Assembly (NCBI GenBank): GCA_947568835.1
Contig: OX387610.1
Location: 12,381,001-12,445,000, forward strand
Source of the DNA: Protonemura montana
Taxonomy: Eukaryota; Arthropoda; Insecta; Plecoptera; Nemouridae
Length of the DNA: 64,000 bases
Direction: 5' to 3'
Part shown: one piece after another, positions 24,934 through 63,474 of the stretch
Position numbering within the stretch: the stretch's first letter is position 1
Layout of the letters: each line of letters opens with the position of its first letter
The notes under the pieces: generated by a model
Seen by the model: only the letters and a program-made list of their open reading frames with translations
What the model was told of the DNA's origin: nothing
The model's database searches: none
Position numbers and translations under genes: made by a program

Positions 24934-36013
<11,080 letters not shown>

Positions 36014-41720: not shown

Positions 41721-41812
41721 CGCCATGGAAACGCATCGTCGGCGTCGGTCAGTCAGCGTCGGGACGCCCCGGAACTTGGTGCAGGGTGAGTAGCCAGTTG
41801 GCCGTGCCAACA

Positions 41813-41943
41813 GACCAGTGCCACAGGGATAGCGCTAACACAGTGTGTCAAAAGGACAAGGCTAAGCGGTGGCCGGTCCTTGGTGCTGTTGGACAGGAGC
41901 AGTCAAAGCAGTGTGTCAAAGGGACAAAGCCAAGCAGTAGCAG
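41813..41943 (+). repeat. Single copies of the 68-bp SINE-body unit, interrupted by a MITE
   Basis: GACAAGGCTAAGCGGTGGCC and TTGGTGCTGTTGGACAGGAG match the 68-bp minisatellite at 49785-50905. A related stretch lies at 42405-42490. The MITE at 41944-42343 is inserted here. Confidence 0.8.
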
Positions 41944-42343
41944 CGTTGAGTGTAGGATATAGGTAGAGTTTCAACGTTAATGTTAAAGTCTCTGCGTGAA
42001 AAATGACTACCTTACCGACAAAAATGCAGAGTACCGGAAGTTCACGTTAAGTGGAGCCACTGTCGTATGAATTTTAATTTCGATATTTCTCGTAGGTTAA
42101 CTCACTTTTGAAACTTTTCATGCTCAAAAAATCTTCATCAATGTTTACCTCAACGATTGATATACACGTAACAATATTAAGAAGCGAGTAAATACGATAA
42201 ATATCGAAATTAAATTTCATACGACAGTGGCTCCACTTAACGTGAACTTCCGGTACTCTGCATTTTTGTCGGTAAGGTAGTCATTTTTCACGCAGAGACT
42301 GTAACATTGACGTTGAAACTCTACCTATAACCTACACTCAACG
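41944..42343. mobile_element. Complete fold-back MITE, 400 bp, 7-bp TSD
   Basis: Ends CGTTGAGTGTAGG / CCTACACTCAACG with long inverted arms (CCGACAAAAATGCAGAGTAC and its inverse). Flanked by direct repeats GTAGCAG at 41937-41943 and 42344-42350. Second intact member of the family at 32011-32429. Confidence 0.92.
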
Positions 42344-42581
42344 GTAGCAGGCACCGGGTACACCCTCGGCTCTCTGCCAGGCCAAGCTAACTGTCATGCA
42401 AAGACAGCCAATATACCAGTGCCACATGGACAGCGCCAACACAGAGTGTCAAAAGGAAATGGGCTGAGCGGAGGCCGGCCCTTGGTGCATTTAGATAGAA
42501 GCACCGAGTTCACGCTGAACTCCCTTGCAGGGTATGATGGCTGCTCCTGACTTAGTGTAAACGCCTCCTGGTCTCTCCGAG

Positions 42582-43572: not shown

Positions 43573-44019
43573 AAACCGTGTCTACAAGCTATCCACACGT
43601 CGATGTCCTTTTCACCCATGAGATTGCTTGTCTCTTTGACGCTCAAATGTGGGGTTGGTAAACGTGTTGCTAGCTTTGTCGCGTGTCTAGGAATGCTGAA
43701 TACTGGCATGGAATGCTTGTGCTTTGACCACCAAGACTGGCCAAGCGGCTGGACCGAGAAATAAGATTAAAATTTGAAAATATCACAAAAGCCAGGGCCC
43801 CTTCAAACAAAACCTAACCAAATAATCCAGATATGTTGATCGTATTGAGATGAATCGCGACCAACGTTTTTAGATTTGCAAGTCTACAAACTATTTCAGT
43901 ATTATCCGCATTTTTGTTATTTTTAATTATTTTTGTTTGTTATTCTTGGCCATTTTACACCGTATTCAACGGGGACCGAATCTGTATTAGATTGTTTTAC
44001 CACTTTTTTTTTACCAAAC

Positions 44020-44460
44020 GGTTTGGCGTATTGGTAACACCGGTTCTCGTTAGATCACCGAAGTTAAGCAGCACTGCGCCGAGTCAGGTATTTGATGGGT
44101 GACCATCATACACATGACCAGTTCTGTTCGGGAGACAGGTTGGAGAGATGAAGGTTAGTAAAGCAATTTCACTCGCCTTGCTTATCAACCTCTCGACAGC
44201 ATGGATTTGTGGAGGAATCCTGCTGTTAGAATTGTACCGTCCTTCGGAAGGGACGTTAAGCCGGTGGTCCCCTTGATGCTCTTCGACAGGAGTAGGCTAC
44301 GTGCCGGCACCAGGTTTCCCCTCCTCCTTTCTAGGCTAGGTTAGGTTCATAATCATCTACTCATTCACCGAAGCCATTAGACCAGTGCCGCATGGCCATA
44401 TGTCAAAACAGTGCGTCGTCAAACACCACAACTCAATAAATCAACTAACCACTTTTCAAA
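44020..44460 (+). mobile_element. 5S-rRNA-derived SINE (SINE3-like), full-length
   Basis: The 5' head AACACCGGTTCTCGTTAGAT, CACCGAAGTTAAGCAGCACT, then GGTATTTGATGGGTGACC follows the 5S rRNA gene, including its A-box (AGTTAAGC) and C-box (GATGGGTGACC) promoter parts. The body has GACGTTAAGCCGGTGGTCCC and CTTCGACAGGAGTAGGCTAC. The end has GACCAGTGCCGCATGGCC and AAAACAGTGCGTCGT with a CAAT-type tail. Confidence 0.9.
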
Positions 44461-45529: not shown

Positions 45530-45965
45530 CCACCGAACGGTTTGGCTTGTTGGAAACACCGGTCCTCGTGAGATCACCGAAGTTAAGCAACACTGCGCTG
45601 GGTCAGTTATTGGATGGGTGACCATCATACACATGACCAGTTCTGTTCGGGAGAGAGGTTGGAGGGATGAAAGTTAGCACAGCAACTTCATTCGCCTTGC
45701 TTATCAACCTCTCGACAGCATGAATTTGTGGAGGAATCCTGTTGTTCGCGTTGTACCGTCTCTCGGAAGGGACGTTAAGCCGGTGGTCCCCTTGGTGCTC
45801 TTCGACAGGAGTAGGCTACGTGGCGGCACCGGGTTTCCCCTCCCTTCTAGGCTAGGTTAGATTTATCATCATCCTCATCATCATCCACTCATTCACCGTT
45901 GCCAGTGCCACGAGGCCCGTTTTCAAAACAGTACGTCATTTAACACCACTAATCAATCAATCAAG
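45530..45965 (+). mobile_element. 5S-rRNA-derived SINE, full-length
   Basis: Head ACCGAACGGTTTGGCTTGTT, GGTCCTCGTGAGATCACCGA, AGTTAAGCAACACTGCGC; body and 3' end as in the 44-kb copy; CAATCAATCAATCAA tail. Confidence 0.92.
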
Positions 45966-47429: not shown

Positions 47430-47965
47430 ACCGAACGGTTTGGCGTGTTGGAAACATCGGTTCTAGTGAGATCGCCGAAGTTAAGCAACACTGCGCTGAG
47501 TCAGGTATTGGATGGGTGACCGTCGTACACATGACCAGTTCTGTTCGGGAGAGAGGTTGGAGGGATGAAAGTTAAGCAACACTGCGCTGAGTCAGGTATT
47601 GGATGGTTGACCATCATACACATGACCAGTTCTGTTCGGGAGAGAGGTTGGAGGGATGAAAGTTAGTACAGCAACTTCATTCGCCTTGCTTATCAACCTT
47701 AAGACAGCATGGATTTGTGGAGGAATCCTGTTGTTCGCGTTTTACCGTCCTTCGGAAGGGACGTTAAGCCGTTGGTCCCCTTGGTGCTATTCGACAGGAG
47801 AAGCTACGTGCCTGCACCGGGTTTCCCCTCCTCCCTTCTAGGCTAGGTTAGGTTCATTATCATCCTCATCATCATCCATTCATTTGTTGACGCCTTTAGA
47901 CCAGTGTCGCATGGCCAGATGTAAAAAAAAAACACTGCGTCGTTAAACACCACAAATCACCCGGT
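47430..47965 (+). mobile_element. 5S-rRNA-derived SINE with an internal 91-bp duplication
   Basis: Full-length copy in which the segment GTTAAGCAACACTGCGCTGA through GGTTGGAGGGATGAAA occurs twice in tandem (from about 47477 and 47570). Body and tail follow. It shows the first step of the 91-bp tandem growth seen in introns. Confidence 0.88.
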
Positions 47966-49730: not shown

Positions 49731-52700
49731 ATGTCTGAAGAAGACAACTTTGAGGACGAGGTGAGAGGCGTCACACTCTCGACAGGCAATAGACCAGTGC
49801 CACAGGGATGTTGCCAGCACAGTATGTTAAAAGGACAAGGCTAAGCGGTGGCCGGTCCTTGGTGCTGTTGGACAGGAGCAGCCAACAAAGTGTGTCAGAG
49901 GGACAAGGCTAAGCGGTGGCCGGCCCTTGGTGCTGCTGGACAGGAGCAGCCAACATAGTGTATCAAAGGGACAAGGCTAAGCGGTGGCCGGTCCTTGGTG
50001 CTGTTGAACAGGAGCAGCCGACACAGTGTGTTAAAGTGACAAGGCTAAGCGGTGGCCGGTCCTTGGTGCTGTTGGACAGGAGCAGCCAACACAGTGTGTC
50101 AAAGTGACAAGGCTAAGCGGTGGCCGGTCCTTGGTGCTGTTGGTCAGGAGCAGCCAACACAGTGTGTCAAAGGGACAAGGCTAAGCGGTGGCCGGTCCTT
50201 GGTGCTGTTGGACAGGAGCCGCCAACATAGTGTGTCAAAATGACAAGGCTAAGCGGTGGCCGGTCCTTGGTGCTGTTGGACAGGAGCAGCCAACACAGTG
50301 TGTCAAAGTGACAAGGCTAAGCGGTGGCTGGTCCTGGGTGCAGTTGGACAGGAGCAGCCAACACAGTGTGTCAAAGGGACAAGGCTAAGCGGTGGCCGGT
50401 CCTTGGTGCTGTTGGACAGGAGCAGCCAACACAGTGTGTCAAAGGGACAAGGCTAAGCGGAGGCCGGTCCGTGGTGCTGTTGGACAGGAGCAGCCAACAC
50501 AGTGTGTCAAAGTGACAAGCCTAAGCGGCGGCCGGTCCTTGGTGCTGTTGGACAGGAGCAGCCAACACAGTGTGTCAAAGCGACAAGGCTAAGCGGTGGC
50601 CGGTCCTTGGTGCTGTTGGACAGGAGCAGCCAACACAGTGTATCAAAGTGACAAGGCTAAGCGGTGGCCAGTCCTTAGTGCTGTTGGACAGGAGAAGCCA
50701 ACACAGTGTATCAAAGTGACAAGGCTAAGCGGTGGCTGGTCCTTGGTGCTGTTGGACAGGAGCAACCAACACAGTGTGTCAAAGTGACAAGGCTAAGCGG
50801 TGGCCGGTCCTTGGTGCTGTTGGACAGGAGCAGCCAACACAGTGTATCAAAGTGACAAGGCTAAGCGGTGGCCAGTCCATGGTGCTGTTGGTTCACAATG
50901 TGTTTCTTAATTTTTCAGGAGCTGGTTTCCAGCGATCCAAACCAACGCAACTGGAAAGGGATCTCTATCGCCGTGCTGGTCATCGGCGCGGTGCTTGCGT
51001 TGATTGTGACGTCAGTTGTGCTGCTGACGCCTCCAGACGACGGACCACGCGTGCGCGGCTCGCGATTCACTCTACATGACGTCATAGGGGGCGAACTGGC
51101 AACGCCGCGGTTTAATGGCACGTGGATCCCTGGTGCAAGATCCACGTGTGCATCAGCAATGTGCGGTGAGTTTTGCTGATGGATTGGCGGCAAGGGGACC
51201 TCCTGGTAGGGCAAACTATAGGTGCGAGATGTAACCAGAATAAGGGGAAGTGGTTACAATCTGTGGTTACATGGTAATTTTTGGATCTAACCTTTATTTA
51301 TGATGGTTTTTAGACTTAAGGTTCACTTGATTTATCCTCAGCACTAGTTTTAACAAAAACTATTTGAAATGGGTTTTAAATGCTAAGTGAAGAACAACTA
51401 AATTTCCCGACGTTTCGTAACATGTACTATAGTTACTTCTCCATTTGCCGTTTAGATGTTTCTGGAAAATTGTTTGGAAAAGAAAATTTATAAAAAAATA
51501 TTCGGTTAATTTTATTGTTGCAATCTGGGTCGGGTATTAGATGGGTAACTATCATACACATGGCCAGTTATGTTCAGGAATTATATTGTTCGAGTTGTAA
51601 CGTCCTTCGGAAGTGACGTTAAGCCGGTGGTCCCCTTGGTGCTCTTCGACAGTAGTAGGCTACTTTACCTAGTTGGGCTGATTATCATCATCATCATCCA
51701 CTCTTTCACCGACGCCATTAGACCAGTGCCGCAGGGCCAGATGTTAAAACAGTGCGTCGTTAAATCCCAATAATCAATCAATACAATCCAGGCAAGCATA
51801 ACTTACCCTGCCTTTACCCTTGACAGTACGCCCCCTGTTTGCATGGCGGTCACCCATCCAGTATCTCTGAATGTTGCTTAACCTTCTGCTTGGTTGCCAG
51901 GCGACGAGTTCGTGTACCGAGACGAATGGGGTGGCGTCAGCGTGTACCACGCCGGCAACATGACGTCATACAGCGTAATGACCAACCAGACCTACGTGAG
52001 TACACCCGGCTAGTCCACTTGAAAACACAGCAACAATTAGCAAGGATTTTAATTGTTGTGTCTTTCCTCGCGAATTAAAAGAAAATGTGTGACGCATTTC
52101 ACTTCAAAGCTTTTCTATTTTTGTCGTGCACGTTTGCTACAATGAATTCTGTTTCTTCGAGCTCGCAAATCGCTGTAAATCAATGATCCCAACGTGGCCC
52201 TGAAGGAAGGGGAGGGAGGCCAAAACCAAGTGATCTCGTCACTGCTGATTGGAACCATTCACAAGAGAAGGGATTCCCCGGGATGACAGCTAGAGTTAAT
52301 ACAGCTGGCCGTGTCTGGCTGCTTGTCATTCCGTTGTTTCGAATTGTACGAATTGTGCGTGCATGTGTACATGTTCTCTGAGTCACTGTGCGTGCGTAAA
52401 AGCAGTTGTCTTCTTTGAGTCATGTTAAACACAGAGCAGCTCTCGGCCATTCCATGCCTGAAAGGAAGATATTTCTTTCGTGTGACAGTCAAGGAAAATC
52501 CATATAACCTAGGCAACCACCACTGCAGGTTAGGTAACCAACCTGTCTGGTATTTCAATGTGTGTTAGTCGTCTGATTTTTATTCCTCCAAGCCGCAGGT
52601 GTTTATGGTACTAATGAGGTTATTCACAACTCAAGGATTCTGTAATGCATTTAGTCTTTTATCGCTTTGTCACACTCAAAATCCCCCGTTGACGGTGGCA

Positions 52701-55700
52701 TCAGATTGCTCTGAAAATTACATTCAATCCAGTCCAGCAGCCGGGTAACCTGACTAAAGTCTGGTTGTATTCCGATGAAGTTTTCTAGCGCTTGTCTCTT
52801 TGCTTACAGAAACGCTATGGCCCGGCCGGCTACCAACTCTCACCCGACAAGCACTACCTGTTGCTGGCCACGGACGTTCGCAAGGTGTTTCGGTATTCAC
52901 ATACCGCGCAGTACACGATCTACGATGTCACGACCATGTGAGTTGAACGAGCAGCCTTGGCCTGGTTATAATCTTGGTTAACTTGGCTATTTATTTTAAT
53001 TCCTTCCCAATATTTCTTGCCAATGAGATGCCCTACCGCCATGTCCCCAGGGACACGTTCCCGGTGAAAGCCACGCCCACTTCGGGACCACTCCAGCTTG
53101 CACGCTGGGCCACCAGGGGCGCCGGCCTTGCCATGGTCCACGACGGCGACATATACTACCAGCCGACACCACGATCGGAACGAGTCTATCGAGTGACGGA
53201 CACTGCAGTGCCAGGAATCGTGTCCAACGGAGTGCCGGACTGGCTCTATGAAGGTATTGCGATCACCCATCCAACATCTGACTTAGTGCAGTGTTGCTTA
53301 ACTTTCATCCCTCCAGCCTCTCTCCCAAACAGAACTGGTCATGTGTATGATGGTCACCCATCTAACACCTGACTCAGTGCAGTGTTGCTTAACTTCAATC
53401 CCTCCAACCTCTCTCCTGAACAGAACTGGTCATGTGTATGATGGTCACCCATCCAATACCTGACCCAGCGCAGTGTTGCTTAACTTTCATCCCTCCAACC
53501 TCTCTCCCCAACAGAACTGGTCATGTGTATGATGGTCACCCATCCAATACCTGACCCGGCGCAGTGTTGCTTAACTTCAATCCCTCCAACCTATCTCCTG
53601 AACAGAATTGGCCGTGTGCATGGCGGTCACCCACCCCTGTGCTAAATTGTTGCTCAACCTACCGCTTGTCCCCACAGAGGAGGTGCTGGAGAGCGAGGCT
53701 GGAATGTGGTTCTCAGACGACGGACACCTTCTGCTGTACGCCACGTTCAACGACACTGATGTGCAGGAGCAACGCTTCCCTGTGTTCGGAACACAAGACC
53801 AGCAACCCCTCTACCCGCAGATACAATCACTACGCTACCCAAAGGTTGGGACTATTCAGCTATTATTAAACCCTAGGACACAAGCCCTGACAGTCAGTGA
53901 ATGTGTGGGTAGTGATGAAACAAGTCATGAGAGGCGAAAGTGCCGGCACTTAGCCAACTCCTGTTCTAACTCCTTCCGAAGGACGGTACATCTCAAACAA
54001 CAGGATTCCTCCACAAATCCATGCTGTCAAGAGTTTGATAAGCAAGGCAAATGAAGTTGTACTAACTTCCATCCGTTCAACAGAACTGGTCATGTAAACG
54101 ATGGTCACCCATCCAATACCTGACCCAGCGCTGTGATACTTAACTTTAGTGATCTTAGAAAGGGCACTCATACTGGGTCTCATGAATGTCCACTCCTACA
54201 AAAATCAGCCACATTTTCCGAGTAAAAAAAATGGTCCCAATGACTTCTACAGCTTGAGTAAAACCATAATCTTTACTATGGAATGGGACAGGTTTTACTT
54301 GCCAGTTCCTATGCTATTCTTACCTTGATCTAGATCCTGACTGATACCTAGGAAACATCGTATAAAATTCTGTGATTGCTAGACACACATCAATGCAGTT
54401 TACCTCAAGTGTCACTCGCCATATTTGGGGATTAAACTAAATAATTTGATAAATACTCAGGTTAAACAATGTGATTGTATTTGTATAAATTGTATTTATT
54501 TTTCTCTTACAAATGTGTATTTGCTGCTCTGTGGTAAGGTACATACTACATAGAACCACAGATTGACATACACAGATATATCACCTTACCCAGCTTTGGC
54601 TACGGCACGCTACGGCAAAAAATACTTGTTAAGCGAGCACTGAGGGGCGCTGGCATCGCGATGTATAGTAGCATCAGTTGAATATTGGGCCACCAGAGTG
54701 CAGGGTAATCGGTTTGACCGAGTGGTGGGGCGAGAGTACAGCTTGCTGAACTAAAAAATGGGTACTGGAGTTGGCGAAGTACTTGTCATTGGAAAAGGGA
54801 TCGTGTTAGTGTTAAAAATTGAAGAAAATGGAGGATTTAGGTGCAAACGTCGGTACACTGCAGCTGAATAAAAAGAAAGGCGAGTCCATTATCATATTGC
54901 AACTATATTTTAATCGCAAGCAGGGACATATGTGTGTTTCCTTCTGAAGGCACTGCAAGCTGACAGTACCTATTTTGTTTCTATTACAAATGCTTAATGG
55001 GTGGGGAAATAAAAATACATTAACAACAATATATTGTTATATTTCAGGTTTCAATTTGAAGAAACTAGAACAAAAAGTCAGTCTCATCTAAAGAGATCAA
55101 ATGAAAATACAAAGCAAGTCCCAATACCAGGGGCGCCGACTACGTGTGTGCCCGAGAGCTCGAGCAACCCTCGAAAACTCTTTGGATATTCTCAAATCTT
55201 TCGATACGAGATTTTTTTCCGTAACTCATCAATAGCTGTCAACATTCCAGGGCTAAAAAGTAAAAGCCATCCGTATGGCATGAGTTGCCGTACAGTAAGA
55301 TGGTTCAAAGAATCTTACAAAATCATTCTGAAAAATATATGACAACAGCTATATACTCGCTCATAATAATATTGACTACGCGATCGCGAAACTATAAGCT
55401 TGGCCAAGGTCAGCGCACCGCATACCCTTTGTAAGGCAGCGCCGACAAAGCAATGCGAATACCCCTATTTTTGTAGTTTCCACTCTCAGTACATGACCGA
55501 TCCTTTCGTAACAAGAACGACCAGCAATGATGTCATTAAAGGGGCACAAATCACGTTTTGGTCAGTTTGCAGTTTCAGATTTACTAATGTATTAAGGATT
55601 TGTAACAGCTGTGAATTGTTTGTTGATTTCCTTTAATAGGGCAGTGTTAAACGCATCCGGGGAAGTGATACGGGACGCGGTGTGCATTTTCCCGTTCCAC

Positions 55701-58700
55701 ACATTTTCTACCGTGGCACAAGGGGAGTGTATCACGTGGGTGTCTAGCTATGCGTCTAGATTTGATTTGGAACAAAACACTACTGAATATCTAAGCCGAT
55801 TTGCGATAAAAATGTTCCGAGAATCGCTAATACCAGAGCCATTTAACTCACAAAACCATCTTATGCTAATAATTTAATTTTGAAATTTTTTAAAGCACCA
55901 TTACATTCGGCTTCGAAACCTGATTTCAAATCAGTTTAAATTTTTGTTCTAATGTTGAAACTACCCTCTCTAGCATCAATTTACCGTGATCAACCAGCAA
56001 GGTTACTGGGCCACCTGCTCAGTCTCGCCAAACCATCGTAATCGCCTGGCGATATTATTATAAAACCCAGCAATGCGGGAATTCCAAGAAAATCAACATT
56101 GAGATAAGCACCCGCCAAGTCAAAGTACCTATCATTTAATAGATTTTCGAAATTTGAAACAATCCACATTACTTTCCGAAATGTTCTATGCGGAAATCTT
56201 TTTTGATCGACATCCTAGCCCCAGATTTAGCGATTTGACATAAGTTCTCACCCAACAATTTCAATATGACTTGGTCATGATCGTGAATTTATGCAACGAG
56301 AGGCTCACAGCGACTTCCAAGCGTGTTTATATAAGCAATATCCACCGAGTCTAACGGTCTGCAATATGGTATCACAATTTAGTTCAGTAGCAAGCATTTT
56401 ACTTGCCGAAATAAGCAGCCGACTAGATTTGACCTATCTCGTGTACGATTTATAGCTAAGAAAACTCGTTCATGACATCGCTCTGAGGTGCATTGTGACA
56501 ATATTCTTTCTGTACCGAACTGAACTTCTCGGTGCAATAAATTGAACTAATTAACGGTGTAACTAATAATGATAATATACAACAAATCAGGGAACAAGAA
56601 ATCACCCTTTATGTACTTAATCCTATTTCTTATTGATTTCTTATTGAACCACGCAGATATTTGATATTTGATATTTTTATTCAACTTGATATTTTATTGA
56701 AACGAATTTGAATTTGATCTAAAAAAAACGATCGCGAACTTCGATCTTCGATCGCGATTGTTTTTTGACGACGATCTTGATCTTTTTAAAAGATCGCTTT
56801 CAAAACGATCTTCCCCAAATATGGCACCCGAGCATCATTATAATTATTTTCTGGGGTGTTTACATTTTTCTTCAATGTTGGACTTGCTCGAACTCCGCTG
56901 CAGTTATCGCCTGGATACAGTAGGATAGCGGCAGCGCTGAGAGCGAATGTGAGCGAAAGGACTTTAGACCGATGACCGAGCAAGCTTGGAACAGATAGTA
57001 TACTTGAGAGGGAGCGAATGTGAGCGAAAGGACTTTAGACCGATGACCGAGCAAGCTTGGAACAGATAGTATACTTTAGAGGGAGCGAACGTAGCGCGAT
57101 CCCGTGTCCAGAGGGCAAACTATTTTAGCTTGTTGGTGAGGGGATTGGGGCGAATCTTGCGGGGCGAAAGCTTTCGCGTAGCTCCCAATAGCATAGGAGT
57201 GGACAATCTGTGTATGTCTATCTGTGATAGAACCTTAGGTACTCTATCCATATCTGCTCTATCCATAGTGATTAAATAATGGATAAACAAAAATATGTAA
57301 AATGTACGATTTTGATGGCTATTTATATGTAATGGCTCAGATATGTGATGGCTATTTAGCTTAGTAAAACTGATTATTATTATTATTATTATCATCTATG
57401 TCCCGATTTTGCAGCCTGGCACTCCCAACCCCACAGTGGCACTCTTCGTGGCAGACTTGGCAGACCCTAGCAACCTCCGTACCAGGGACTTGAAGCCCCC
57501 GCCTGTCGTCAAGGCATTCCCGTAAGTACGAAACAACCTACGTTGCTCAGAGTAGCAACATGTCCAACGCATGGGCTACCCATTTTAGCCACTGGTCTGA
57601 AATAACCTAGATATCGGTTGTGATTGTGATTTGTGAGACTTTGGAATCAAACAACAAGGCCGCCATCTTGAGAGTCCCTTTCTTGGAATATACATATAAG
57701 AGCCCGTGCCTTAGCCGGTGCTGTTGCTTCCTATAATGGATTGCCGAATTTCAATTTTGATCAGCTGGCTGGATCCTATTCTCTATCCAGGTTATTTGAG
57801 ATCAGCTGGCTGGATCCTATGCTCTATCCAGGTTTTTTTAAATCAGCTGGCTGGATCCTATTCTCTATCCAGGTTATTTGAGATCAGCTGGTTGGATCCT
57901 ATGCTCTAACCAGGTTATTTGAGATCAGCTGGCTGGATCCTATGCTGTATCCAGGTTATTTAAGATCATCTGGCTGGAACCTATGCTCTATCCAGGTTAT
58001 TTGAGATCAGCTGGCTGGATCCTATGCTCTATCCAGGTTATTTGAGATCAGCTGGCTGGATCCTATGTTCTATCCAGGTTATTTGAGATCAGCTGGCTGG
58101 ATCCTATGCTCTATCCAGGTTATTTGAGATCAGCTGGCTGGATTCTATGCTCTATCCAGGTTTTTTTAAATCAGCTGGCTGGATCCTATTCTCTATCCAG
58201 GTTATTTGAGATCACGGCATGTACCTTGGAGGCTGCAATACCAACTTGGTGTTAATAAAGATAACCTTTATCTATAACCAACATCGTTGGGTAACGAATG
58301 TCAGAGTTTTGAGTGCCGACGTTGTACCATGTTACAGTGAGTACTACTTCACGGCGGTCAGGTGGGTCAGCGTCACCGAAGTCGCCGTCATCTGGATGAA
58401 CCGCGCTCAGAACATGTCGGTGACCACAGTCTGCAAGAGTCCGGTGTGGTACTGCCAAGAGGTAGGCCATCCAACACCTCATCCGTTGTAGTAGTGCTTA
58501 ACTTTCATCCCTCCAACCTCTCTCCCAAACAGAACTGGTCATGTGTATGATAGTCCCCCATCCAATACCTGACCCAGAGCAGTGTTGCTTAACTTTCATC
58601 CCTCCAACCTCTCTCCCAAACAGAACTGGTCATGTGTATGATGGTCACCCATCCAATACCTGACCCAGAGCAGTGTTGCTTAACTTTCATCCCTCCAACC

Positions 58701-61700
58701 TCTCTCCCGAACAGAACTGGTCATGTGTATGATAGTCACCCATCCAATACCTGACCCAGAGCAGTGTTGCTTAACTTTCATCCCTCCAACCTCTCTCCTG
58801 AACATAACTGGTCATGTGTATAATGGTCACCCACCCGACACCTGACCCAGCGCAGTGTTGCTTAACTTTCATCCCTCCAACCTCCCTCCTGAACAGAACT
58901 GGTCATGTGTATGATAGTCACCCATCCAATACCTGACCCAGAGCAGTGTTGCTTAACTTTCATCCCTCCAAAGTCTCTCCCGAACAGAACTGGTCATGTG
59001 TATAATGGTCACCCATCCAATACCTGACCCAGAGCAGTGTTGCTTAACTTTCATCCCTCCAAAGTCCCTCCCGAACAGAACTGGTCATGTGTATAATGGT
59101 CACCCACCCGACACCTGACCCAGCGCAGTGTTGCTGAACCCTGACCTTTGTTTCAGACTGGTCGAGTCAGTGGGAAAGGCAAGGGCTGGGTTGACATTCA
59201 GGAGGCACCATTCTTCAGTCCTGACAGCAAAAACTACATCACCATGGAGCCGGTGCGCGTGGGCGTGGCGGGAGAATTTCGACATGTCGTGTTGGTCAAT
59301 CTGCAAAACAATCGGTCCGTGCCATTGACCTTGGGCGCTTTCGAGGTCACACGTATCCTGGCGTGGGATCACGAGCAAGCAATAGTGTGAGTGGGACGAG
59401 GCAGACTTGCACTCAAACTTTAGGCAACTTCGTAACAACGGGGCATGGGAAAAGTGCGTTTCAGGTTTTTCACAAAATTTTGGAGCAAATTTCAAATTTT
59501 ATTCTGTTCAATTAGCACAGCGACAAGCCCGTTAGATCTCTCTGCTATCAATGCAAACTGATGGAATTGAACCTCAACGATTGATCTTCGCATATCAATA
59601 TTCAAAGTCATGATTGTTTAATTGCAGAGGATTGTTATAAGCCATCGGGTAGTCACCACCGTTTCTTTGAGTTCCTGAATTATTTGCTCAGCAGAAAGCT
59701 TAACATTAGCGCTGTGTCTCTGTCTAAACCTATAGACTCAATGGTGTCATCTTTCTTTACCCTCGGTAACATAAGATAGCAGAATTGAGAAACTCTGTCA
59801 GGCGATCTCAGCATCTCCATGACTACCAAACGTTGAATCTACCATTGAATCTCCTATGCTAGGCCATGATATGCCCGTGGTAACATAAGATAGCAGAATT
59901 GAGAAGCTCTGTCAGTCGATCTCAGCATCTCCATGGCTACCAAACGTTGAATCTACCATTGAACCTCCTATGCTAGACCATGATATACCCGTGGTAACAT
60001 AAGATAGCAGAATAGCTGAATAGCAGAATAGAGAAGCTCTGCCAAGGGATTTCATTATCTCCGTGGCTTCCAAATGTTGAATCTACAATTTAATCTCATA
60101 TGCTTGAAAGTGTTTTTACTTTCAAAATTGGCATAAAAATGTTCCTTTTTAGAATAATTTTAGGATAATTACCCATGAAAACCATGGCCCATGTCCCAAG
60201 CGCTTCTGACTCAAGATGTTCATCGACAGTTACTACCTTGGAGTCCCAGAGGGCCAGCCTTCGGAGCAGCATCTCTACAGCGTTAGTTCGAAGCCCCCAC
60301 CACCAGGGGTTCCCCTTCCAGACCCCGAGTGCATCACGTGCCAAGCCCCGCCCAGCACTGACCACGCCCATCCGTACGCGGGCACGACGGGGGCACGAGA
60401 CGCCGACCAATATCGTGAAGCCTACGAGGGGGAGACCCCGCCCACGACCACGCCCTCGCCGCCACCGCAGCACAAGCACAAGAAGAAGGGTGAGTCGACT
60501 AGAATAGAGGGAGTTTTTTTAGGTTTTGTCTCACCATTGACAAATTTATCACAAATTTATGATGGTTCTTAGACTCATGTCTACTTGATTTATCCTTAGC
60601 TGTAGTTTTAAGAAAAATGGATGCACTGAGTTGGCTGTTTGAGGTTTATTTCTTTATTTGTTTATTAATAGCTTTGGTATTACAATAATTTTACCTGAGG
60701 CTAATAGAATTACAATAGAGTGTTTATAAAATTTACAATATAATTACAAAGAATAATGTAATGACTGACTGTCGTTGCCAACAGGTGGCGCCACACGTGG
60801 AGATCCGATGCTTGCGCTGGTTTGCCCGTGTCGCTTCCACGCGGCCACGTTCAGTCCGAGCATGGGACACTTTGTGCTCGAGTGTCTGGGACCGGGCGTT
60901 CCCACGGCAACGCTTTATGCCACGCGGCCAACGTTGCACCTGCGAGCACACCTGCAAAACAATACGCGGCTCGTTGAACGCCTGGCGCGCATGGCACTGC
61001 CGCAGGTGGGTCTTCCAATGAGACTATTGATTAATTTTTGGGGTTAAACAACATACTGTTTTGACAACGGGTCATGTGGTACTGGTCTAATGGCGTCGGT
61101 GATTGAGTGGATGATGATGAGGATGATGATGAACTTAACCTAGCTTAAAGAGCGAGGGGAAACCCGATGCCGGCACGTAGCCTGTCAAATTGCACCAAGG
61201 GGACCACCGGCTTAACATCCCTTCCGAAGGTCGGTACTTCTCGAAAACGATTCCTCCACAAATCCGTGCTGTCGAGAGGTTGATAAGCAAGGCGAGTGAA
61301 GTTGCTGCACTAACTTTCATCCCTCCAACCTGTCCGAACAGAACTGGCTATGTGTATGATGGCCACCTATCCAATATCTGAGCCAGCATTGTGTTGCTTA
61401 ATTTCGGTGATCTCACGAGAACCGGTGTTTCCAACACGCCAAACCATTCGGTGTGTTTCTTTTCTTATCTTATCGTTTGTTCTATTATAATTTCTTGAAC
61501 GTTTTGTTAATATTCGGTGTTTCCCTCCTGAGCTTATAAATCATTTATCCTTCTCGTTCCATACTCATGTCCTAGGACACATTTCTCTGGTGATGAATAA
61601 AGTGTGCTTCCTTGAGATGTTACCAGTGTTGCTTCACTTTGTTTTCAGATCAAGACGTTTGCCGTGCAGATCAGCGGAGGTTACCACGCACAAGTTCGGC

Positions 61701-63474
61701 TTCACCTTCCGCCGGGTCTTCGTGAGGATGAGATCACCCGATACCCGCTCGTGGTGCAAGTGTGAGTGCCAAAATTGAAGCGAAAAATGATATTTTTACT
61801 GAACTATTAAATCCAAGGTTAGGTCTCTTTTGAATATCGTTATGTGTATATCCATTGTTAACGTAAATATTAATGGAGATCTTTTGAGCATGAAAAATCT
61901 CCCTCAAAAGCGAGTTAACCTACGAGAAAGATCGAAATTAAATTTCATACGACAGTGGCTCTACCAAACGGAGTGTTCCGGTACTCTGCATTTTTGTCGG
62001 TAAAGTAGTTATTCGGCGGCCATCTTTCATGCAGAAAGTTTAACATTAAGGTTCTGCCTCTACCTATAACCTGCACATTCAACGGTTTAACATTAACGTT
62101 CTGCCTCTACCTAGAACCTGCACACTCAACGGTTCAACATTAACGTTCTGTCTCTACCTAGAACCTGCACACTCAACGATTTCCCTGATCAAAGTAAAAA
62201 CGAAGCCAAGAGTTAGGACGAAAACAATGATTTATTTAAATGTATTTCCTGCGATCGGGTGATATCTTAGGAGAACCGAAGTCAACTGACTCTCCTCTGG
62301 GTCGCAGCCCTTCAGGATCGTGTACCTACCTACCTGCCCCGGTGGAGGGACAGGTCACTTACCACACAAAGTGGCGGGAACTTTACAAGATCAGAGCTGG
62401 GACTCTGACTGAACTTACGACCCTTTACTTCCGCAGTTACGCCGGGCCTGGCAGCCAGCTGGCGACGCAACGTTGGCGTCTCGATTGGAACACGTTCCTG
62501 TCCTCCGGACGAGACTTCATCGTCGCGCAGATTGATGGGCGTGGCTCCGGTGGACAGGGCTACCAACTTCTGCACGAGGTCTACATGCGTCTGGGGACAG
62601 TCGAAGTTGCTGACCAGCTGGAGGTTACAGAGTAGGTGGCCACGCTGACTGAGATGGGGCGATCGAAGGAACTTGCCAGGAGTTACTAGATTTTGGCGTG
62701 TGTCGGTGGATGGAGTTGCGGGTAGGGGAGAATTTAAAAAATGTTGCATTTCGATCGATTTAATTTCACACTCTATAAACTTATTGTGATTGCTGGTATC
62801 GTTTGGAAACCCTTTATTTACTTTCCCAGTCTTAATCGCGGTTGCTTTATGAATTGATTGCCGATTTCACCAACATCTGGCTAAACTTGATTTAAACTTG
62901 GTTTAGGTTCAAGATTTGATATTTTCTAAATTAATGACATTTTTCTAAAACAGTACCTACAATAAATACCCTGTTTCAATCATTCAAATCCAATCAATTC
63001 TGTATTATTATTATTATTTTTTTTGTTAAACCCTTCAAAATATAAGAAAATATAAAAAAAATTATTGACACTTTAATTTTAGGTCAATATTGATGAAATC
63101 GGTAATGAGGAAGTCAGTTGATTGTATTATAAAATTGAATCAGCAACATTTGTAAACCAATACCACGAAAAGTATAGTAATAGAGCTATAATTATAAAGT
63201 TTAATACAAATTCTACTCCACAAACTTCACAATAAAAAGCCAGAAAACACAGGCGAATTTAGTTTTTTTTTTAAGCAAAAGATTTTATATAAAAGTGTGT
63301 TTCTCATCCCGTGCAGATACCTTCGAGACTCGCTTCACTTTGTTGACAAGCGTCGGGTCGCGTTGTGGGGGTGGAGCTACGGAGGTTTCGTCACGGCAAC
63401 GGCGCTCGCGCGGGACCAAGATGTCTTCCAGTGCGGCATCGCGGTCGCCCCGGTTACCACGTGGAAACTGTATG
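49731..63474 (+). CDS. Dpp10-like: Dipeptidyl peptidase 6/10-like type-II membrane protein (S9B), 3' end off window
   Basis: Exons: 49731-49760, 50919-51132 (or 51165), 51901-51995, 52810-52937, 53051-53253, 53678-53844, 57415-57521, 58338-58461, 59157-59384, 60216-60489, 60785-61005, 61649-61761, 62437-62631 and 63317-63474. They total 752 aa and the frame stays open. A short cytoplasmic tail with QRNWKG precedes one membrane segment (about 25-46), a DPP6/DPP10 hallmark tied to Kv4 channel binding. Next come propeller blades (LSPDKHYLLLATDV, FRYSHTAQYTIYD, DWLYEEEVLE, EYYFTAVRW, NRAQNMSV). DGRGSGGQGY and GWSYGG start the hydrolase domain. Unlike mammalian DPP6/10, the nucleophile serine (about 720) and the EE motif (about 223-225) are both present, so it may be enzymatically active. 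Exon 10 adds a Pro/His/Lys-rich insert of about 60 aa. TAG is in frame upstream of the ATG. Catalytic Asp/His lie off the window. Confidence 0.93.
49785..50905 (+). repeat. 68-bp minisatellite, about 16 copies, in DPP intron 1
   Basis: Unit GACAAGGCTAAGCGGTGGCC-GGTCCTTGGTGCTGTTGGAC-AGGAGCAGCCAACACAGTGT-GTCAAAGT repeats from just after exon 1b to 14 bp before the exon 2 acceptor. 68 is not divisible by 3, so the overlapping short open frames here are repeat artefacts. The middle matches the 5S-SINE body (AAGCCGGTGGTCCCCTTGGT, GACAGGAGTAG). Confidence 0.95.
51119..51148 (+). promoter_or_regulatory. Perfect 10-bp hairpin with the exon 2 splice donor in its loop
   Basis: CACGTGGATC (51119-51128) pairs exactly with GATCCACGTG (51139-51148). 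The 10-nt loop contains the donor G|GTGCAA (51132/51133) that gives the family-length protein. A stronger donor GTGAGT at 51166 is in the same phase and would add 11 residues. Confidence 0.6.
51525..51785 (+). mobile_element. 5S-rRNA-derived SINE, 5'-truncated and internally deleted
   Basis: GGTATTAGATGGGTAACTAT, then TGACGTTAAGCCGGTGGTCC, CTTCGACAGTAGTAGGC and GACCAGTGCCGCAGGGCC with AATCAATCAAT tail. Confidence 0.85.
51825..51900 (-). repeat. Antisense 5S-SINE unit forming the 3' end of DPP intron 2
   Basis: GCATGGCGGTCACCCATCCA, then GAATGTTGCTTAACC and a pyrimidine-rich tract to GGTTGCCAG, the acceptor itself. Same position in the unit as the acceptors of introns 5 and 8. Confidence 0.7.
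53254..53677 (-). repeat. DPP intron 5: 91-bp antisense SINE units from donor to acceptor
   Basis: ACAGAACTGGTCATGTGTAT-type words start near 53331, 53421, 53512 and 53603 (91-bp spacing). The donor GTATTGCGATCACCCATCC aligns with GTATGATGGTCACCCATCC of the unit. The acceptor TTGTCCCCACAG aligns with CTCTCCCGAACAG. Confidence 0.9.
53920..54150 (-). mobile_element. 5S-rRNA-derived SINE fragment, minus
   Basis: TTCCGAAGGACGGTACATCT, TCCACAAATCCATGCTGTCA, CAGAACTGGTCATGTAAACG and CCCAGCGCTGTGATACTTAA follow the reversed SINE. In DPP intron 6. Confidence 0.85.
54151..56930 (+). other. DPP intron 6 interior
   Basis: No supported exon. AT-rich with scattered moderate open frames that lack family features. 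56715-56815 is dense in GATC and CGATC words, with short palindromes such as TTCGATCTTCGATCGCGA. Confidence 0.5.
56937..57090 (+). repeat. Tandem duplication of ~73 bp
   Basis: GAGCGAATGTGAGCGAAAGG then GACTTTAGACCGATGACCGA occurs twice at about 73-bp spacing, followed by a third partial start (GAGGGAGCGAACG). Confidence 0.9.
57757..58215 (+). repeat. 41-bp minisatellite, about 11 copies, in DPP intron 7
   Basis: GATCAGCTGGCTGGATCCTA then TGCTCTATCCAGGTTATTTGA repeats with few differences. It covers more than half of the 816-bp intron. Confidence 0.95.
58462..59156 (-). repeat. DPP intron 8: 91-bp antisense SINE units from donor to acceptor
   Basis: AACAGAACTGGTCATGTGTA-type words occur near 58528, 58619, 58710, 58801, 58893, 58983 and 59073. 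The intron begins GTAGGCCATCCAACACCTCA and ends TTGCTGAACCCTGACCTTTG-TTTCAG, both alignable to the unit. The following exon starts ACTGGTCGAG, like the unit's ACTGGTCATG. Confidence 0.92.
59570..59745. repeat. Diverged MITE fragment
   Basis: ACCTCAACGATTGATCTTCG and CTCAGCAGAAAGCTTAACAT parallel MITE centre and arm words. In DPP intron 9. Confidence 0.55.
59764..60100 (+). repeat. 114-bp tandem repeat, about 2.9 copies, in DPP intron 9
   Basis: TAACATAAGATAGCAGAATT starts at about 59769, 59883 and 59997, followed by ATCTCAGCATCTCCATG and ACCAAACGTTGAATCTACCA in each. The third copy has a small insertion. Confidence 0.92.
61020..61455 (-). mobile_element. 5S-rRNA-derived SINE, full-length, minus
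   Basis: Reads from ATTGATTAATTTTTGGGGTT (tail), GTCTAATGGCGTCGG, CCGGCTTAACATCCCTTCCG to TTCGGTGATCTCACGAGAAC and ACGCCAAACCATTCGGTG (5S-like head). In DPP intron 11. Confidence 0.9.
61835..62181. repeat. Half MITE with its outer 47 bp triplicated
   Basis: Right-arm sequence (GAGTTAACCTACGAGAAAGA, GTGTTCCGGTACTCTGCATT) followed by three tandem copies of the 47-bp terminus AACATTAACGTTCTGCCTCT-ACCTAGAACCTGCACACTCA-ACGG (62039-62181). In DPP intron 12. Confidence 0.88.
62632..63316 (+). other. DPP intron 13
   Basis: AT-rich, no repeat family or exon recognised. Confidence 0.5.

Follow-up and report, generated by a model that had tools for sequence, protein, structure and literature searches.

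The window analyzed here, 64,000 nucleotides of the Protonemura montana genome (contig OX387610.1, forward strand), contains a predicted DPP gene, a predicted FOXK gene, and several copies of a 5S-derived SINE. Intron 8 of the DPP gene (58462..59156, + strand) is 695 bp long, i.e., 58 + 7 x 91 bp, with donor GTAGGC and acceptor CCTTTGTTTCAG. Splicing at these sites is predicted from the reading frame, from the exons joined over the intron, which match Pfam DPPIV_N across the junction (2e-16), and from tblastn with human DPP4. In the initial annotation this intron was a run of some seven 91-bp units, each the reverse complement of the 5S-derived SINE head, and results from TRF, unit alignment, and Rfam agreed. 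The array spans 58467-59139 and makes up 673 of the 695 bp (unit aligned to intron bases 6-678); TRF reported period 91 at 58495-59139, with 7.1 copies and 94% matches. The units also hold the signals that had been ascribed to them, namely the branch-point-like TTGCTTAAC, a pyrimidine tract, CGAACAG, and GTGTATG. However, the acceptor does not fall at the CGAACAG of a unit as had been proposed, since unit homology stops after TTGCTGAAC and the intron closes with 17 nt (CCTGACCTTTGTTTCAG) lying outside the unit. The donor GTAGGC does adjoin the unit's GTGTATGATGG position, but a unit origin of the donor letters is unsupported. Similarly, exon 9 starts with the unit-like ACTGGTC, but this is probably a coding coincidence, since it encodes TGRV, where human DPP4 has TGWV, and since ACTGGTC does not begin the 3' exon of any other array intron whose 3' exon was read.

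Three further introns of the DPP gene, all on the + strand, carry related sequence. A second array intron (53254..53677) interrupts the coding sequence between DWLYE and EE, measures 424 bp (60 + 4 x 91), and has donor GTATTGC and acceptor CCCCACAG; the exons joined over it match DPPIV_N at 1.1e-21. The intron between WIP and GDEF (51133..51900) holds a sense SINE piece, with part of the head at 51525 and the body running to about 51792, and one terminal antisense 5S core (51848-51882), after which the exon follows 18 nt further on. Intron 1 (49761..50918; 1158 bp, between MSEEDNFEDE and ELVSS) is occupied by a 68-bp tandem array (49813-50891) without a terminal 5S core. Since this 68-bp repeat is in sense orientation and resembles a part of the SINE other than the source of the antisense-5S unit, an antisense branch point would not always be what is selected.

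SINEs derived from 5S rRNA constitute the SINE3 class. Dispersed copies of the head in the window were recognized by Rfam RF00001 at 44013..44133 (+, 52.1 bits) and 45532..45652 (+, 62.2 bits), and, as in other 5S-derived SINEs, the 5S-like head of dispersed copies is joined to a common body. A copy at 47430..47665 (+; Rfam 5S rRNA, TRF) has a head with two 91-bp units, i.e., an array within the SINE. An antisense copy in a large DPP intron (61311..61452, - strand; Rfam 5S rRNA at 61332) has its core flanked on either side by ordinary SINE sequence. Unlike in known 5S-derived SINEs, the 91-bp part of the head is here tandemly repeated not only within SINE copies but also as long dispersed arrays and inside introns of unrelated genes. 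SINE copies are frequent in the region, introns included.

Array introns were also found in other genes. The FOXK intron (31919..32577, +) has diverged antisense-5S units at both ends and an inverted-repeat, MITE-like insertion in the middle, and a Forkhead domain was matched across the predicted exon join. A 430-bp array intron of an SLC32A1-like gene lies just beyond the end of the window, at what we take to be the same place as the intron of human SLC32A1. Elsewhere in the genome are a 715-bp array intron in a SET/PRDM-like gene and a 79-bp intron in a protease homolog that is nearly all antisense 5S; the unit covers 46 of those 79 bp, the antisense 5S extending beyond the core and over the branch-point motif in the direction of the AG. 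In a kinesin intron, of which the donor end alone was read, the first core starts at intron base 8, as it does in locus L004, where the array edges lie at GTAAGTT and CAACACAG; L004 is counted only as probable, since its frame reaches a stop shortly after the join.

The six introns read at both ends (two in DPP and those of FOXK, the SLC32A1-like gene, the protease homolog, and the SET/PRDM-like gene) share one plan, in which a donor of 5-11 nt is followed by a 42-bp antisense-5S core and then by n x 91 bp, each 91-bp repeat consisting of the core plus a 49-bp linker. The five that lack an inserted element measure 79, 424, 430, 695, and 715 bp, or 58-79 + n x 91 with n = 0, 4, 4, 7, and 7. The unit alone accounts for >80% of four of them (both DPP introns, SET/PRDM, and SLC32A1-like), covering bases 1-405 of 424 in DPP 53254, 10-699 of 715 in SET/PRDM, and 12-369 of 430 in SLC32A1-like; FOXK is broken by the other element. 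A branch-point-like CTNAAC stands 17-32 nt before the AG in five of the six. The intron base at which the first core begins is 7 in FOXK, 8 in DPP 53254, 10 in SET/PRDM, and 6 in the protease; it is 12 in SLC32A1-like and 6 in DPP intron 8, where four and six core bases, respectively, are missing. Of the eight left edges, three (protease, kinesin, and SET/PRDM) came from a pattern that required GT at that distance. Four that were located independently of any edge-based pattern lie within 6 nt of one another on the circular 91-bp unit (simulated P = 0.0015, with the left-edge phases entered by hand). Within the window, three of five cores without a left linker match follow donors, and three of six without a good right linker or 5S-half match precede acceptors. 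Dispersed arrays, too, exit the unit at TTAAC, so this right-hand edge is no peculiarity of introns. Identity of the terminal core to consensus was 40-42/42 in the protease, SET/PRDM, and kinesin introns and 27-38/42 in FOXK and both DPP introns, suggesting takeovers of different age. The donor letters differ (GTGAG, GTGAGAA, and GTACGTTCC) among introns whose first cores are 40-41/42 identical to consensus, so that a donor carried along within a mobile unit seems unlikely. The last 17-32 nt likewise differ between array introns.

Genome-wide, the enrichment of the unit at intron ends that the initial annotation had called for is modest, exact patterns giving tens of places of which few were read. 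The pattern AGGTN{6,11}ACCCATCCAA occurred at 105 places vs. 3 in the control. Forty-six of these were read (30 cut out as loci, 14 hand-picked, and the previously known introns of DPP and SLC32A1), and a coding frame precedes five (L079, L087, L095, DPP 53254, and SLC32A1-like), the remainder being, by eye, mostly SINE, array, or subtelomeric copies and a few unrelated sequences. GTAAGN{1,8}CACCCATCCA gave 102 places vs. 1, with the linker variant GTAAGATGG making up most of the 100 matches listed. A sense-orientation control, GTGAGN{0,6}GTTAAGCAACAC, gave 28 vs. 0, but this result carries no information, GTGAGATCACCGAAGTTAAGC being a part of the SINE. A mobile-intron family defined by a common 3' end was considered, DPP 51900 and locus L096 both having CTTGGTTG after the core, and rejected; TGTTGCTNAACCNNNNCTTGGTTG with <=2 mismatches was found at 13 places vs. 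1 in the control, and no coherent set emerged. On contig C14, a donor-pattern match at 2949607 and the end of an acceptor-pattern match at 2949941 lie 335 bp apart on the same strand (62 + 3 x 91), a weak candidate for a further such intron.

The initial annotation likened DPP intron 8 to introner-like elements or to the intron-filling minisatellites of amphioxus. Comparison with paralogues of the same genome argued against the creation of new introns, since all four testable introns (FOXK, both DPP introns, and the protease) lie at positions where paralogues have introns. FoxO and FoxP have introns at the codon and phase of the FOXK intron, but with unrelated ends (the Fox names being our reading of the sequences). 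The break at DPP 53254 is common to three other DPP genes (profile 95-99); the position of DPP 58462 coincides with an exon start in one DPP paralogue, while the other of the two compared has no break. At least four protease paralogues break at the position of the 79-bp intron, and several others, including the best match, are uninterrupted. No paralogue was found for a comparison of the SLC32A1-like position. Where this could be checked, then, the array introns look old and their contents alone new, pointing to repeats taking over introns rather than creating them.

On the sequence evidence, we consider it probable that tandem arrays from the 5S-headed SINE took over the bodies of pre-existing introns. 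The old intron would persist at its two margins, as a donor of ~5-11 nt and a 3' end of 17-32 nt with pyrimidine tract and AG (less clearly in SLC32A1-like); between these remnants, in the antisense-5S cases, would lie the 42-bp core, single or repeated with its 49-bp linker. Since the CTNAAC of the array sits where a branch point is expected, the best reading is that it often supplies one. We infer that a SINE fragment was first inserted into a short old intron and was retained for the branch point it provides, the splice sites being left intact, and that unequal exchange with other arrays of this repeat in the genome later raised the number of 91-bp units, by which the outer edges would stay at the core boundary. 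An intermediate, i.e., a complete old intron with a new SINE fragment, was not caught among the introns read. The stronger proposition, that 5S-SINE arrays repeatedly swap the stretch from 5' splice site to branch point of ancient introns by a process recognizing those points, strikes us as quite unlikely; if it were true, old introns would be renewed in sequence while being neither lost nor gained.

An alternative account, which we regard as unlikely, is that SINEs entered the introns in the ordinary way and were later reshaped by deletion and slippage, so that the neat edges reflect only what splicing tolerates. The abundance of SINE copies in the region and its introns, the frequency of the right-hand edge outside introns, and the fact that the donor and the stretch from branch point to AG are all that must stay are in keeping with it. 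However, left edges cluster near one unit phase although any should be tolerated, and the near-consensus protease and SET/PRDM introns are probably too young for two precise deletions to have occurred separately in each. A splicing-linked swap, in which RNA or cDNA of a 5S-SINE array replaces the stretch from 5' splice site to branch point by a mechanism using those points, would explain why in most cases replacement begins at ~donor +6 and stops at the branch-point-like motif, a span nearly that of a lariat loop; yet no intermediate was seen, the 5S piece of the protease intron passes the branch point towards the AG, and DPP intron 1 has no 5S core at its end, and we hold this very improbable.

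Equally improbable, in our view, is that antisense 5S-SINE units bearing both splice sites enter exons and make introns, in the manner of the introners reported in animals including copepods (PMC9860276). As in introners, several genes here have introns that consist of related sequence as far as the splice signals; the introns are bounded near one unit phase, and the protease intron is almost only antisense 5S. Against this stand the four paralogue-shared positions and donors that differ despite near-consensus cores. The tandem arrays and the 5S-SINE source also set these introns apart from introners; splice sites within the element or its target duplication were not found, the duplication having been looked for by eye in the protease intron only. 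In the mirage minisatellites of amphioxus (Adh3 and globin genes), the unit is the local exon-intron boundary and cluster ends are more diverged than the interior (PMC3087553). Tandem duplication of such a boundary within the gene would accord with the order of signals in our unit (branch point, pyrimidine tract, CAG, 10 nt, GTGTATG), with minisatellites reaching the intron ends, and with both DPP array introns, whose units are more diverged at the cluster ends than inside, unlike those of the near-consensus SET/PRDM intron. Nevertheless, the repeated sequence is one genome-wide SINE piece, present in several unrelated genes and in SINE copies, not a duplicated exon edge of its own gene, and no units were seen that had letters derived from an exon and occurred in a single gene, making a mirage origin most improbable.

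Takeover of old introns by 5S-SINE arrays remains our preferred reading. In Alu exonization, antisense SINEs supply splice sites. Here, too, splice-like signals are brought by an antisense SINE, although the element appears to act as intron body and branch point rather than as a new exon. No description of SINE-refilled old introns was recognized in the open-access literature searched. Introns that look like introners can be old introns with new contents, and intron-sequence similarity alone would therefore overcount intron gain; the age of an intron's sequence can differ widely from that of its position. Should the edge rule prove valid across the genome, it would show how little of an intron must persist for function and how a reversed 5S-type element can act as branch point and body.

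The initial annotation described DPP intron 8 (58462-59156, 695 bp) as about seven 91-bp units antisense to the head of a 5S-derived SINE, and this was confirmed: TRF found 7.1 copies, 94% alike, at 58495-59139, and Rfam identified the head of the dispersed element, of which the unit is the antisense, as 5S rRNA at four positions within the window. By alignment, the unit covers bases 6-678 of the 695. The intron is predicted to run from 58462 GTAGGC to 59156 TTTCAG, and its flanking exons, when joined, match Pfam DPPIV_N (2e-16); exons next to these are picked up by tblastn with human DPP4 as query. Eleven copies of a 41-bp repeat (57759-58214) lie just upstream of the exon preceding the intron, ~100 nt from its acceptor. 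In each unit, a 42-bp 5S-derived core (GGTCACCC...GTTGCTTAAC) is joined to a linker of 49 bp, which also adjoins the core in SINE copies; downstream of the head, ~270 bases of SINE body align between two copies. Searching the assembly (258 Mb) with the 645-bp array gave at least 113 matches, including the window's own, from 40 scored of 1924 first-look candidates, and the unit is therefore a genome-wide repeat. Ten of 22 array stretches (array-search loci outside the unit-by-unit listing, the window's own counted) start at phase 4-5, preceded there by SINE-body letters.

A core scan found 23 cores in the window at score 15, while the reversed-sequence control gave 2 places at threshold 14 and 0 at 16. 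Five of the 23 had no left-hand linker match: three follow donors (31925, 53263, 58467), one (32435) abuts an inverted-repeat element within the FOXK intron, and one (51848) stands by itself at the 3' end of a DPP intron. A good right-hand linker or 5S-half match was lacking in six, namely those before acceptors (32515, 51848, 59098), 32435, internal to FOXK, 54103, in a SINE copy one half of which is diverged, and 51525, a truncated minus-strand copy. Divergence kept the terminal half-core of DPP 53254 off this list. Tandem 5S heads without linker occur at L003 3450, L075 and L094 (loci cut from the assembly), where the 5S half passes directly into the next core at the junction of CGTTCGGT and GGTCACCC, with a left boundary identical to that in the array introns.

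Both ends of array introns were also read in FOXK (31919-32577), elsewhere in DPP (53254-53677), in an SLC32A1-like gene (L031 6811-7240; Pfam Aa_trans, 5.2e-16 over the join), in a trypsin-like protease homolog (L079, 79 bp; Pfam Trypsin, 1.5e-37 over the joins) and in a gene (L095, 715 bp) which we take to be SET/PRDM-like and for which Pfam gave no match. The donor end was read in a kinesin heavy chain gene (L087; named from PDB chains, 1e-11), and the acceptor end at an L096 exon with weak Ldh_1_N likeness (0.044, below cut-off). The first core begins at intron base 7 in FOXK, 8 in DPP 53254, 10 in SET/PRDM, 6 in the protease, 8 in kinesin and 8 in the probable case L004, as well as at base 12 in SLC32A1-like (4 core bases missing) and base 6 in DPP 8 (6 missing). 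The distance between the last CTNAAC and the AG is 24 nt in FOXK, 19 in DPP 53254, 17 in DPP 8, 27 in SET/PRDM and 32 in the protease; the final 61 bases of the SLC32A1-like intron do not align to the unit. The five uninterrupted introns measure 79, 424, 430, 695 and 715 bp, i.e., 58-79 bp plus 0, 4, 4, 7 and 7 x 91. The FOXK array is interrupted at about 32011-32430 by the inverted-repeat, MITE-like element, whose terminal sequence ATAACCTACACTCAACG resembles, by eye, a 47-bp tandem unit at 62038-62182. At L004 (C1:31946525-31950167), a thirteen-core array starts directly 3' of GTAAGTT and stops 19 nt short of the end of CAACACAG, with a length of 1160 = 68 + 12 x 91; its surrounding coding frame is doubtful, and the case is counted only as probable.

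Four of the left edges came to light by means other than an edge-based pattern, and these span no more than 6 nt of the 91-bp circle (simulated P = 0.0015); the same simulation gave ~1e-7 for eight edges, a figure that takes in the merely probable L004 and three edges found by a pattern requiring GT at that distance. The right edge is not special, since a stop near TTAAC also occurs in dispersed arrays. Genome-wide, the donor pattern GTGAGN{0,6}GGTCACCCATCC matched 26 places vs. 0 in the control (7 or 8 of the 26 being, by eye, unlike linker variants), and the acceptor pattern CAGTGTTGCTNAACCN{5,15}CAG matched 22 vs. 1. By such pattern counts, with few of the places read, the unit is modestly enriched at intron ends across the genome, and we estimate that near-consensus array introns form a family of some dozens, with diverged ones besides, the named cases being those read. 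On C14, a donor match at 2949607 and an acceptor match ending at 2949941 on one strand are 335 bp (62 + 3 x 91) apart, a candidate pair for which the 58-79 length class has a chance of ~1 in 4. A head-to-head 5S core junction, GCGCAGGGTCAGGTCATGGTCACCC, occurs in a repeated block near many chromosome ends (L062-L067, L084, L085 and further listed places), at most ~100 kb from an end of C1, C2, C11, C12, C13, C14, C15 and C16; it is also on C4, possibly likewise near an end.

The initial annotation placed the splice sites of DPP intron 8 inside the unit and likened the intron to introner-like elements or to the intron-filling minisatellites of amphioxus; the age of the intron positions bears on the introner reading. 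In FOXK, the post-intron exon begins at the N of NSIRHNLSL in phase 0, and in FoxO and FoxP of the same genome (names from our own reading of the sequences) an exon starts at that codon, preceded by unrelated intron ends (cf. PMC9539403); the upstream FoxP exon ends in ATWK, followed by GTACAG. For DPP 53254, three further DPP genes on C1 show a break in their DPPIV_N matches at profile 95-99, the match gaps measuring 211, 283 and 1293 bp. For DPP 58462, the exon of one paralogue starts at profile 222, after an AG (expected position, 223), and another paralogue is unbroken over profile 178-295. In at least four paralogues of the protease, exon matches stop at residue 80-82 and restart at 86-88, separated by hundreds of bases or more; the position is uninterrupted in others, among them the C11 paralogue that matches best (2-141). 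No paralogue of the SLC32A1-like gene was found when sought. Given these breaks, the four testable introns are at positions shared with paralogues, FOXK exactly and the other three to within a few residues, and introner-type intron gain is therefore not supported by the introns tested.

The intron contents differ in age. Of the 42 positions of a terminal core, 40-42 agree with the consensus in the introns of the protease, SET/PRDM and kinesin genes; agreement is at 27-38 positions for the two introns of DPP, 29 and 34 for FOXK, and 32 at the one end of the SLC32A1-like intron that could be read. These differences suggest takeover of old introns at different times. In both DPP array introns the outer cores are less alike than the inner ones, as in amphioxus mirages, whose inner repeats are described as the more alike in passages of PMC3087553. 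Array-filled introns are locally clustered around DPP: within ~40 kb there are three in this gene and one each in two nearby genes, and 2 of 5 confirmed donors (from 46 places read in an AGGT-type donor pattern search) fall in this region. In DPP intron 1 (49761-50918), about sixteen sense-strand copies of a 68-bp tandem repeat fill the stretch that starts at base 53 and stops 27 bases short of the exon. In sense, this unit scored 21.5 against the SINE body (maximum of 2000 Markov shuffles, 17.5) and the intron's first 110 bases scored 18.5 (maximum, 18.0); neither had an antisense match to the body, and under laxer scoring the unit did not exceed its 500 shuffles. The 68-bp repeat thus appears to resemble a part of the 5S-SINE other than that in the 91-bp unit, in sense orientation. 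It also occurs at about 41761-42421 and near the L096 exon. The DPP intron at 51133-51900 combines a sense SINE piece with a core in antisense at the intron's 3' end.

Alongside the anatomy of the array introns and the paralogue positions, both directly observed, we propose that the bodies of old introns were replaced by SINE-derived sequence, which would then have been amplified, possibly with unequal exchange as the motor. Splicing presumably takes place at the predicted sites, and the branch point may be supplied by the SINE-derived sequence.
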